From positions 1 to 64,000 of the forward strand of contig CALWSL010000014.1 of NCBI GenBank assembly GCA_944384205.1: a stretch of 64,000 bases of DNA. The letters are read 5' to 3'. The notes under the pieces are model-generated. The model ran no database searches and had not been told where the DNA came from. It saw only the letters and a program-made list of their open reading frames with translations. The stretch is from an uncultured Acetatifactor sp. (GTDB lineage Bacteria; Bacillota; Clostridia; Lachnospirales; Lachnospiraceae). This document shows, one piece after another, positions 8,078-13,443 of the stretch (positions are counted from its first letter, which is position 1; every line of letters starts with the position of its first letter). The translations under genes were made by a program, and so were the position numbers.

Positions 8078-8200
8078 GCAATCATGACCTCCGAATTTAA
8101 TAGCGATATCATATATCATAATGCCTGGTTCGTCAAGGGATTTTAAAATGAAACAATATATTATATTAAAATAAATCAATTAAAATAATAATACAAATCC

Positions 8201-8229
8201 TTGTAATGCCGGAATTGGCGTGATAATAT
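8201..8229 (+). promoter_or_regulatory. Predicted sigma-A promoter of the leuA–araC fusion
   Basis: TTGTAA at 8201-8206, a 17-nt spacer and TAATAT at 8224-8229 lie about 70 nt before the gene start. The spacer holds an imperfect dyad around GGAATT. No T-box or leucine-rich leader peptide is visible in the 220-nt tcdA–leuA interval, so leucine control would need another route, such as the fused DNA-binding domain. Confidence 0.45.
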
Positions 8230-8298
8230 GGTTAAATCAAATCAAGAGTGAAAGGAAAATTTACACAGAAATGGATGTGAATATTGAGGAGGCGTATT

Positions 8299-10302
8299 AT
8301 GAGAAATGAAACTGTAAAAATAAGTGAGAAGTACGGAAAGACCTATTTCCTTCCCCCGGAAATAACGTATGACTGGGTGAAGAAGGACAGCATCGCAAAA
8401 GCGCCCATCTGGTGCAGTGTGGATTTGAGAGACGGCAATCAGGCGCTGGTAGAGCCGATGGGTTTAGAGGAGAAGCTGGAATTTTTTAAGATGCTGGTGA
8501 AAATCGGTTTTAAGGAGATTGAAGTGGGATTTCCTGCATCCTCCGATACGGAATATAATTTTATCAGAACATTGATTGAGCGCAATATGATTCCCGATGA
8601 CGTGACGATTCAGGTGCTGACACAGGCGAGAGAGCATATTATCCGCAAGACCTTTGATGCGGTAAAGGGTGCGCCCCATGCAGTGATTCATCTGTACAAT
8701 TCCACTTCCGTGGAGCAGAGAGAACAGGTTTTCAAAAAGGATAAGGAAGCCATCAAACAGCTTGCCGTTGACGGCGCGGCGATGTTAAAGAAGCTGGCGG
8801 AGGAGACAGAAGGAAGCTTTACGTTCGAGTACAGTCCTGAGAGCTTTTCCCAGACGGAGGTGGATTATGCTCTGGAGGTATGCAATGCGGTGCTGGATGT
8901 CTGGCAGCCCGATGCAGAGCATAAGGCGATTATCAATCTGCCGACCACCGTACAGGTGGCGATGCCCCATGTGTTTGCATGTCAGGTAGAGTATATGCAC
9001 AAGCATTTGAACTATCGTGACAATGTGGTTCTCAGTGTTCATCCCCATAATGACAGAGGCTGCGGAATCAGCGATGCAGAGTTTGGCGTACTGGCAGGCG
9101 CTGACAGAGTGGAGGGTACGCTGTTTGGCAACGGTGAGCGCACGGGAAATGTGGATTTGGTAACGGTTGCCATGAATCTGGTTTGTCATGGCGTGGAAAG
9201 CGGACTTGATTTTTCCCGAATCATGGAAATCCGGGAAGCCTATGAGCGCTTTACGGGAATGAAGGTGCATGAGCGTACCCCTTATGCGGGCGACTTGGTA
9301 TTTACCGCTTTTTCCGGCTCTCATCAGGATGCTATCAGCAAGGGCATGACCTGGTTAAAAGAAGGCAGAAGCGGCAAAAGATGGGATGTGCCGTATCTTC
9401 CCATTGACCCTGCGGATGTGGGAAGAGAGTATGAATCGGATGTAATCCGTATCAACAGTGTTTCCGGCAAGGGCGGTGTGGCTTTTGTGCTGAAACAGCA
9501 ATTCGGATTTTCCCTGCCTGCCGCTATGAAGGAGGAGGTAGGATATCTGATTAAGGGAGTGTCTGACAAGAGGCATCAGGAGCTTTTGCCGAAAGAAATT
9601 TACGCTATTTTTGAGGAAAATTATATTCACCCAAGGAGCATTTTTAATATTCCTGAATGTCATTTCAAGCAGGAAAACGGCATTCAGGCTGAGGTAACGA
9701 TTGAACAGTACGGGGAGAAAAGAGTGATTTGTACCTTTGGAAACGGCAGACTGGATGCAGTCAGCAATGCCATTAAGACCTATTTTGGCATTGATTACGA
9801 ATTGTCCGTGTATGAGGAACATGCCATTTCCAAAGGCTCTGCCTCGAAAGCTGCGGCATATGTGGAAATTATGCAGGACGGCAAAGCTTACTGGGGCGTC
9901 GGTGTGGATGAGGATATCATTAAAAGCTCGATTGCCGCACTGGTATCCGCCGCCAATAAGCTTGCCGGGGAGCAGCATATCACCGCAGGGCGGGAGCAGC
10001 GGATTATAGAGATTATCAGCTTTATCCAGAAAAAATACGTGGACGTGACATTGGACGCCTTGTCGGAACATTTCCACCTTTCCAAGCCGTATCTTTCTAA
10101 ATATATTAAGGAAAAAGCAGGAAAGACCTTTCAGGAGGTTGTAAAGGAAGAGCGCATGAAAAAGGCAAAAAACATGCTGAAGCAGACAAACAGTACCGTG
10201 GAAACCATTGCCGCCAATGTAGGTTATGAAAATGTAGAGCACTTTAACAGACTGTTTAAACGTTCCTTTGGCGTAACGCCTGTTCAATACCGGAAAAATT
10301 AA
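8299..10302 (+). CDS. leuA: 2-isopropylmalate synthase fused to C-terminal AraC-type DNA-binding domain
   Basis: The first step of leucine synthesis: acetyl-CoA plus 2-ketoisovalerate to 2-isopropylmalate. Residues about 30-310 form the catalytic TIM barrel, with DLRDGNQ (42-48) and the metal-binding HPHND (248-252), in the order typical of type-2 LeuA. Residues about 440-558 match the LeuA C-terminal dimer/allosteric domain (GNGRLDAVSNAI, SKGSASKAAAYVE). Residues about 567-667 are a complete two-helix-turn-helix AraC domain (LDALSEHFHLSKPYLSKYIK; ETIAANVGYENVEHFNRLF, then GVTPVQYRK). The frame is uninterrupted. I chose ATG 8299, with AGGAGG at 6 nt; an upstream TTG at 8284 lies inside that ribosome-binding site. 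A linked leucine-sensing and DNA-binding role is inference. Confidence 0.92.
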   Translation: MRNETVKISEKYGKTYFLPPEITYDWVKKDSIAKAPIWCSVDLRDGNQALVEPMGLEEKLEFFKMLVKIGFKEIEVGFPASSDTEYNFIRTLIERNMIPDDVTIQVLTQAREHIIRKTFDAVKGAPHAVIHLYNSTSVEQREQVFKKDKEAIKQLAVDGAAMLKKLAEETEGSFTFEYSPESFSQTEVDYALEVCNAVLDVWQPDAEHKAIINLPTTVQVAMPHVFACQVEYMHKHLNYRDNVVLSVHPHNDRGCGISDAEFGVLAGADRVEGTLFGNGERTGNVDLVTVAMNLVCHGVESGLDFSRIMEIREAYERFTGMKVHERTPYAGDLVFTAFSGSHQDAISKGMTWLKEGRSGKRWDVPYLPIDPADVGREYESDVIRINSVSGKGGVAFVLKQQFGFSLPAAMKEEVGYLIKGVSDKRHQELLPKEIYAIFEENYIHPRSIFNIPECHFKQENGIQAEVTIEQYGEKRVICTFGNGRLDAVSNAIKTYFGIDYELSVYEEHAISKGSASKAAAYVEIMQDGKAYWGVGVDEDIIKSSIAALVSAANKLAGEQHITAGREQRIIEIISFIQKKYVDVTLDALSEHFHLSKPYLSKYIKEKAGKTFQEVVKEERMKKAKNMLKQTNSTVETIAANVGYENVEHFNRLFKRSFGVTPVQYRKN

Positions 10303-12282: not shown

Positions 12283-12326
12283 TGATTTGCTGATTTTTGC
12301 AGGAAATGCGGAAGGGAGTAAACAGG

Positions 12327-13443
12327 TTGAACGAAAAAGAATTGCTGGAGCTTATTGGTAAGGGAGAGTGTCATACAACTGAGTTCAAGAAATCCACAAC
12401 AGATATTACAAAGGATGTATATGAGAGTATCTGCGCATTTTCTAATAGAGATGGCGGTCATGTTTTCTTGGGTGTGAAGGATAATGGAGAGATACTTGGC
12501 ATAGATCAGAATTGTATTGAGAAAATGAAGAAAGAGTTTGTATCCGCAATTAATAATGCGAACAAAATGTATCCGCCGCTATTTTTAACGCCGGCAGAAT
12601 ACGAACTTCAGGGGAAAAAATTCTGCACATCTATGTGCCTATTGGTACACAGGTAAGCAGATGTTCCGGACGAATTTATGATAGAAATTCAGAGTGCAGA
12701 ATTTGGATAGATACGATGATAGAGATGTAATTGTTACTAATTTGCTGGACAGCTATGGTAGGATGAATGCGTTTGCTAAAAAGCATCTGAATGATCCGTT
12801 TGTCTTAGATGGAATGCAGTCTGTTAGTGCCAGAGATGCAATTTTAAGAGAGATTATATCTAATAGCTTAGCACATCGGGATTATTCAAGTGGATATGTT
12901 GCAAAAATGGTAATTGAAAAAGAACGCATATTTGCAGAAAACAGTAATAGAATACACGGACATGGAAATTTAAATTTGAATACATTTCAGCCATTTTCCA
13001 AGAATCCCGCAATTTCTAAGGTGTTTAGAGAAATAGGACTTGCAGATGAGTTGGGTTCAGGAATGAGGAATACTTATAAATTTACAAAATTGTATTCAGG
13101 AGGAGTTCCTCAGTTCGTAGAAGGGGATATTTTTAAAACGGTAATACCATTGAATGATACCGCTACAATGAAGTCGGGTCCAAAGATTAGTGACCAAGTC
13201 AGTGACCAAGTTAGTGACCAAGTCAGTGACCAAGTTGGAAATGGTGATGTCATACAACAAAAGATACTTGTATTTTGCAAAACAGCCAGAACAAAAAAAG
13301 AAATTGCAGAACACATAGGTTATAGGAATCTAACCTATATGACGCGAACATTTCTGAAGCCATTATTGGAGAGTAATAGGCTGGGATATACAATACCGGA
13401 GAAACCACAGAGCAGGTTACAGAAGTATATAACGAAGCAATAA
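12327..13443 (+). pseudogene. AlbA_2/Schlafen-type ATP-binding regulator, broken by deletion and frameshifts
   Basis: The N-terminal part (12327-12656, TTG start after GAAGGGAG) is an AlbA_2 domain: ECHTTEFKKS and ICAFSNRDGGHVFLGV. The C-terminal part (12694-13443) is the ATPase-like/winged-helix half: SVSARDAILREIISNSLAHRDYSS cut by my reading at the conserved Asn, then IGLADELGSG. Between them the frame changes after GKK near 12615; the alternate frame continues family-like sequence (HIYVPIGTQ, GRIYDRNSE) to about 12700. Relatives have roughly 100 more residues there, so a deletion is also inferred. The C-terminal half has four SDQV repeats. Confidence 0.8.
13189..13236 (+). repeat. Four tandem 12-bp repeats encoding SDQV
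   Basis: Four head-to-tail copies of AGTGACCAAGT(C/T), with T and C alternating at the last base. Each copy encodes Ser-Asp-Gln-Val, so copy-number change would keep the frame. It lies in the linker of the broken AlbA_2 regulator. Confidence 0.95.

Follow-up and report, generated by a model that had tools for sequence, protein, structure and literature searches.

The window, by which we mean the whole 64-kb (64,000-nucleotide) stretch of DNA analysed, carries on its forward strand a leuA–araC fusion gene (8299–10302), a single open frame of 667 amino acids whose ATG at 8299 is preceded by a ribosome-binding site, GAGGAGG (8286–8292). Pfam finds the domains HMGL-like, IPMS_D2, LeuA_dimer, HTH_18 and HTH_AraC in that order: the catalytic TIM barrel of 2-isopropylmalate synthase (residues 36–313, positions 8404–9237; E 2.7e-69), the post-catalytic IPMS_D2 domain with H342 and Y378 (residues 332–399, 9292–9495), the LeuA_dimer allosteric (leucine) domain (residues 429–555, 9583–9963; E 9e-28) and an AraC-type double helix-turn-helix (HTH; HTH_18, residues 588–666, 10060–10296; E 1.2e-21), within which HTH_AraC matches residues 627–666, all on the same strand. 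Between enzyme and HTH, conservation and an AlphaFold2 model place a linker (residues 556–569), less conserved than the four domains compared with it, and a first helix ahead of the HTH_18 match (together 9964–10059). The HTH_18 score of 77.2 bits, against a gathering cut-off of 33.6, places the double HTH among AraC/XylS-type factors, and NCBIfam PRK03739 (2-isopropylmalate synthase) matches residues 22–554 with 792 bits against a cut-off of 455; NCBIfam models label the fusion solely as 2-isopropylmalate synthase. Pfam and NCBIfam thus bear out what an earlier note on this DNA had read from the letters, that LeuA barrel, leucine domain and an intact double HTH share one 667-codon frame: an intact enzyme and an intact DNA-binding domain in a single chain, the arrangement of a PutA-like enzyme–regulator fusion or 'trigger enzyme'.

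Built on 62 fused homologues, the AlphaFold2 model reaches a mean pLDDT of 83 and a pTM of 0.62 over the whole chain, with the AraC-type helices at 567–666 well folded (block-mean pLDDT 84–90) and some loops (46–50, 327–337 and 375–389) below 50. Its best PDB matches by Foldseek are Mycobacterium tuberculosis LeuA (E 7e-52), with a TM of 0.45 and an rmsd of 17 Å over the chain, so the model's domain arrangement is not trustworthy, and neither that arrangement nor the dimer can be read from it. Elsewhere in the window, at 12297–13443, an AlbA-like gene is by eye seemingly split into two frames (119 and 249 amino acids), the second with SDQV repeats.

Distribution of the fusion

The fusion occurs in 16 of 24 other genomes sampled from the same genus (15 with a single full match; G012 with two matches, in one open frame). 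Two further genomes (G002 and G017) have the same LeuA, 76–77% identical, without the HTH, three (G001, G009 and G022) have a stand-alone LeuA alone, 50–52% identical, and three (G008, G020 and G023) gave no LeuA match at E 1e-40. Counting by eye the matches that reach residue 665 or beyond, we find the fusion in at least 89 of 397 Lachnospiraceae genomes, its own included. A sample of 294 genomes of the order, each at least 90% complete, holds at least 44 fusions, those listed all in Lachnospiraceae; among the matches listed, those from other families end at residue 587 or earlier. In a scan of named genomes the best 80 of 363 relatives all reach residue 664 or beyond, under titles including Acetatifactor sp., [Clostridium] symbiosum, Claveliimonas bilis and Mediterraneibacter sp. 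Because the architecture recurs in this way across the family genomes and these best 80 relatives, the fusion is no assembly artefact of a single genome, a danger that the earlier note had raised when it proposed a search for LeuA_dimer–HTH architectures; such architectures prove widespread in both the genus and the family sample.

On a LeuA tree the HTH state changes nine times, four of the changes being forced by starred branches, and since HTH-less genes sit among fused ones, the HTH may have been lost several times. A tree of the HTH with five other AraC domains of its own genome has long branches. In two loci, L150 (G101) and L160 (G118), a frame change right after the leuA stop separates the HTH from LeuA and leaves the HTH frame intact; at L160, where the change lies near a run of eight A, slippage or an error in sequencing may be the cause. 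For both loci the alternatives are a split pair of genes, frameshifting and a sequencing indel.

An operator-like repeat at the promoter

Ahead of the fused gene, on the forward strand, a core promoter (8201–8229) combines a weak −35, TTGTAA (8201–8206), a 17-bp spacer and an extended −10, TGaTAATAT (8221–8229). Abutting the −35 is a putative operator (8165–8204), a direct repeat whose TNAAAATNATCA-like half-sites are spaced by 22 bp and whose PWM score of 38.0 is the highest in the window on either strand. Fused genes commonly share the pattern ATTAAAATAAATCAAT-N6-GATTAAAAT-N3-CACTTG directly ahead of the promoter core. The matrix, trained on fused genes, predicts a 40-bp operator (score above 14) in 101 of 105 distinct fused upstreams of 700 nt, the exceptions being L055, L106, L126 and L132, whereas 0 of 30 upstreams of HTH-less homologues score above 0; shuffled sequences (400-nt windows) gave a maximum of 14.0 in 2140 draws and a 99th percentile of 4.2. 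The pairing of HTH with own-promoter operator that marks a trigger enzyme is seen here by this co-occurrence only. Three HTH-bearing genes outside the training set score 34.5 (contig-cut L149), 24.2 (split L150) and 6.5 (split L160). A matrix trained on one clade recognizes fused genes of the other above the 99% shuffle level in 30 of 37 distant and 52 of 60 genus-like cases, against 0 of 30 and 1 of 30 unfused controls, respectively, fused genes of 0.78–0.80 core identity being in neither training set; the genus-trained matrix missed split gene L160 (−3.7).

The geometry of these sites is nearly fixed. Among direct-repeat shifts of 8–29 bp, self-similarity is positive at 22 bp alone, and ATCAA lies 44–46 bp from the extended −10 in 96 of 110 genes, near-identical ones included, 12 of the 110 showing no −10 by the pattern used; at the promoter of our gene the distance from ATCAA to TG is 46. 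Where a TRnTAnnAT −10 stands at the expected position, as in 82 promoters, TG precedes it in 79, and the −35 matches at most three of six positions in 53. A direct repeat at about two helical turns, held at a near-fixed distance from the −10, is what AraC/XylS-type factors use, and the leuA promoter appears to be regulated. Class-II AraC activators (AraC, RhaS and SoxS) likewise occupy a direct repeat touching a poor −35 at a near-fixed distance from the −10.

A second half-site-like element, GTTAAATCAAATCAA, lies just 3′ of the −10 on the same strand (8231–8245) and is the second-best PWM place in the window (6.3). Within 12 nt after the −10, AATC occurs in 27 of 53 genus-like and 1 of 29 distant promoters, and CAA-N3-7-TTGAT follows the −10 in 20 of 29 distant and 0 of 53 genus-like ones, against shuffled expectations per sequence of 0.02 and 0.00, respectively, for patterns picked after inspection of the sequences. 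These elements may be repressor or looping sites, and their conservation suggests repression as well. They are also what speaks for an autorepressor, a leucine-bound fusion that would bind the same operators and block its own promoter, as in PutA-like autogenous repression. The main, near-universal site, however, sits directly upstream of a poor −35, its spacing to an extended −10 fixed, where a class-II activator would bind, and we hold pure autorepression to be possible but doubtful; by analogy with known activators, activation would be our first choice and autorepression the second.

The putative operator tracks the HTH

Whether clades are compared, split genes or losses within the genus, operator and HTH keep company. 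After removal of near-identical sequences 95 rows remain, and in 92 of them the presence of an operator (score above 6) matches that of the HTH (62 with both, 30 with neither, three with the HTH only; Fisher 1e-21), a value that overstates the case, because relatedness leaves nine independent contrasts for HTH state on all branches and four on starred ones. Over the four starred contrasts, too few for a sign test to reach 0.05, operator and HTH change together 3.8 times on average and never in opposition.

The HTH itself is under purifying selection: over 71 close pairs its dN/dS is 0.035, about as constrained as the barrel (0.030; IPMS_D2 0.031, LeuA_dimer 0.063). The two recognition helices, which by analogy we take to span about 595–606 and 645–656, are among the best-conserved HTH stretches, with P597 at 99%, Y598 and S600 at 100% and K601 at 98% in the first, and V646 at 99%, E647 and R651 at 100% and N650 at 96% in the second. 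Such conservation and the low dN/dS rule out a decayed HTH, and the AraC part keeps its presumed DNA-binding residues, whose lack was one of the flaws by which the earlier note had thought its proposal might fail.

These data also bear on whether the fusion reads the operator at all. The HTH might merely tether or store the enzyme, or contact protein or RNA, while another regulator binds the repeat; such a regulator, if inherited along with the fusion, could show the same distribution, and there are few independent contrasts. That the motif follows the HTH through clades, split genes and losses within the genus, that a 22-bp direct repeat fits an AraC-type dimer and that both recognition helices are so well kept nevertheless make such a division of labour unlikely.

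Signs of function in the enzyme

None of 110 distinct fused proteins, and none of 33 others (30 HTH-less and three split or contig-cut), departs from R44, D45, H248, H250, H342 or Y378; we take the metal-binding and catalytic roles of these residues to be those of M. tuberculosis R80, D81, H285, H287, H379 and Y410. E177, which aligns with E218 of M. tuberculosis LeuA, is E in 95 of the fused proteins, ours included, and Q in 15. The invariant residues and the low dN/dS of the barrel rule out a decayed enzyme. In 13 of 15 good genomes, nine of those 13 single-contig, the fused gene is the only LeuA_dimer gene; the exceptions, our own genome (G000) and G062, have a LeuA paralogue as well.

The paralogue in our genome, a stand-alone LeuA 51% identical to the fusion (C4:146671–148284, within the locus 146620–148302; L002, L286), has no operator by PWM and no T-box by Rfam. 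It adjoins, by eye, a YbbR/CdaR-like gene, and its relative is the only LeuA match at E 1e-40 in G001, G009 and G022. A second LeuA would be expected if the LeuA part of the fusion were a pure sensor making no isopropylmalate, an enzyme turned regulator in the manner of BzdR; given six metal and catalytic residues without exception, strong constraint on the barrel and so many genomes with no other LeuA_dimer gene, we regard this as very improbable. By the sequence signs tested, the LeuA part would be a functional 2-isopropylmalate synthase. A neutral read-through fusion with a useless HTH tail, to which repeated loss of the HTH would be congenial, has next to no chance in view of the HTH's dN/dS and its survival as a separate intact frame in both split genes.

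T-box leaders in relatives with and without the HTH

Rfam returns no match up to E 1 between 7000 and 11000, and so no T-box of the kind found before leuA, and inspection by eye of the stretch from the −10 to the ATG shows no run of Leu codons; neither a T-box nor a Leu-codon leader is thus found on the fused gene, in agreement with the earlier note, which saw no T-box or leader peptide upstream. By Rfam, the T-box (RF00230) is found at 13 of 18 HTH-less loci, among them L025 and L026 of the same genus, versus 2 of 19 fused loci (L022 and L023); the two split-HTH loci have none by Rfam. By a short motif, T-box marks occur in 17 of 30 HTH-less versus 10 of 65 HTH-bearing rows (Fisher 7e-5). Since just 1.2 of the four starred contrasts show the T-box following the HTH, the exchange of one for the other is a tendency and no rule, and its direction is something we infer.

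Genes of the C. symbiosum-like group have the operator ahead of the T-box. An operator at the promoter together with a T-box or T-box-like mark between promoter and gene is seen at the fused loci L022, L023, L040, L114, L115, L117, L123, L133, L134 and L138. Fused genes with both are perhaps under double control.

Candidate targets beyond leuA

The exact half-site core TTAAAATAAATCAA occurs once in the genome, at the fused leuA. With two mismatches allowed, the half-site has 113 places there versus 71 for the reversed pattern, a mild enrichment, and in 35 fused genomes a degenerate half-site has 45 places versus five for the reversed control. Fourteen of 44 half-site places scored in fused genomes lie ahead of leuA; several others (L202, L207 and L217, scores 22–23) have no evident link. 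A full-strength operator (PWM 37.2) stands at L225 (G231:C1:2055074) ahead of a gene that by eye, from its protein sequence, we take to encode a BASS-family transporter, possibly a further target.

Within the genus, leuC is a further candidate. Ahead of our own leuC, behind which leuD follows, stands a site with a score of 12.6 at the customary distance of 46 from the −10, and a site (shuffle p below 0.05; nine at 0.015 or less, the next at 0.055) precedes leuC in 9 of 16 fused genomes, ours included, versus 0 of 8 unfused ones (Fisher p 0.009); these counts come from 27 matches less G009 (cut) and G196 (another genus, 45% identical), hence 25, with G015 (fused, with a T-box, p 0.055) set apart. 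The nine sites are weaker than the leuA operators (−7.3 to 17.7), and their distances to the −10 are 45–46 in our genome and G007, 34, one turn closer, in five and 40 in G618, none fitting in G006; seven of the 16 fused genomes have no site at leuC.

At ilvN (best locus per genome, 20 fused and 10 unfused), scores above 6 on the gene strand are confined to G006 (33.9), G322 (12.1) and the unfused G326 (10.1, 1.4 kb upstream), with 13.8 on the opposite strand in G196; nearly all scanned loci lack an operator, and we mostly reject ilvN as a general target. At ilvB the operator is strong in two of eight fused genomes scored (G231, 29.1; G272, 22.6) and absent from the other six, and it is strong in neither of the two unfused genomes scored, four more loci without an ilvB start having been dropped; in G301 and G144 ilvB has a half-site only. 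A near-identical element, AACAGAACGCACTCTGTTTT, just after the −10 of an ilvN-like (ACT) gene, recurs in eight genomes, seven fused and one unfused (L259–L263, L266, L268 and L269), and looks like the operator or leader of another regulator. In our genome two tandem ilvN-like ACT-domain genes lie between ilvB-like and ilvC-like genes (G000:C1:212931–214010; L285), with an apparent promoter between the tandem pair.

Discussion

Intact domains, their conservation, purifying selection on the HTH, the operator, its geometry and its co-occurrence with the HTH are the computed basis on which we think it likely that a leucine-responsive LeuA activates its own gene in the class-II AraC manner, and partly leuC(D) as well, in place of a T-box. 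From these we infer binding, activation and leucine as the signal. The fusion would be a functional, leucine-responsive 2-isopropylmalate synthase that also recognizes specific DNA sites as a transcription factor, regulating its own gene and, in some members of the clade, leuC(D). Two AraC-type HTH modules, paired by a LeuA dimer (LeuA being a dimer in M. tuberculosis structures), would bind the 22-bp-spaced direct repeat; so placed, the protein would abut the weak −35 of the extended −10 promoter and activate it as a class-II AraC activator does. Leucine in the LeuA_dimer domain might then switch activation off or shift the protein to the downstream element, and leucine scarcity would lead to more enzyme synthesis. 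In most fused genes inspected this circuit would replace the T-box leader of HTH-less leuA genes.

The earlier note had imagined a one-protein circuit in which leucine or substrate occupancy of the enzyme controls transcription. Its DNA side has gained substance, with an AraC-like direct-repeat operator at the gene's own promoter, present with the HTH, absent without it and often found before leuC. Gating of DNA binding by leucine or substrate is plausible, given an intact leucine domain placed immediately before the HTH. All told, the fused enzyme probably acts directly on its own gene, turning it on and off. In the fullest version the AraC-like switch would be self-contained: the enzyme of the first committed step towards leucine would sense leucine and, bound to DNA at paired upstream and downstream operators, activate or repress leuC and its own gene, the T-box having been displaced in a large clade of gut Lachnospiraceae and being swapped back on loss of the HTH. 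For this version the balance is tipped slightly in favour.

Enzyme–transcription factor fusions that keep both jobs are, to our knowledge, few. This one opens the questions of whether one allosteric site can set both enzyme activity and gene expression, and of how a lineage swaps an RNA leader for a protein–DNA circuit; its HTH-less, split and doubly controlled relatives form a ready comparison set.

Members of the AraC/XylS family (AraC, MarA, SoxS and RhaS) have, like the fusion, a C-terminal double HTH and a direct-repeat operator abutting the −35, whereas in the fusion a complete LeuA enzyme takes the place of the sensing and dimerization domain. M. tuberculosis LeuA (PDB 1SR9; leucine-bound, 3FIG) resembles that enzyme closely (phmmer E 5.7e-147), with aligned catalytic residues and an allosteric domain, but lacks a DNA-binding domain. 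The T-box of HTH-less relatives presumably does the same job, control of leuA by amino-acid starvation; it is, however, an RNA leader that reads tRNA, and is absent from our gene and from 17 of 19 fused loci tested.

We found no publication on a LeuA–AraC fusion, with or without its operator, in the open-licence literature searched. The principle of an enzyme fused to a DNA-binding domain that controls its own pathway is known from PutA, and BzdR exemplifies the enzyme-to-sensor route. In BzdR an HTH is joined to a shikimate-kinase-like domain, an enzyme fold that serves as sensor as LeuA may here, and kinase activity has been lost (PMC3602430); the LeuA part, by contrast, retains the six catalytic residues tested. 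Trifunctional PutA is likewise an intact metabolic enzyme with a DNA-binding domain, in its case an N-terminal RHH on a proline catabolic enzyme, that regulates its own pathway autogenously, as a repressor switching to a membrane-associated enzyme (PMC5293562). The fusion differs in its C-terminal AraC double HTH, its activator-like operator geometry and the allosteric domain beside the HTH; and whereas PutA is catabolic, it is biosynthetic, an enzyme under allosteric control that takes the first step of its pathway and is common in gut Lachnospiraceae.
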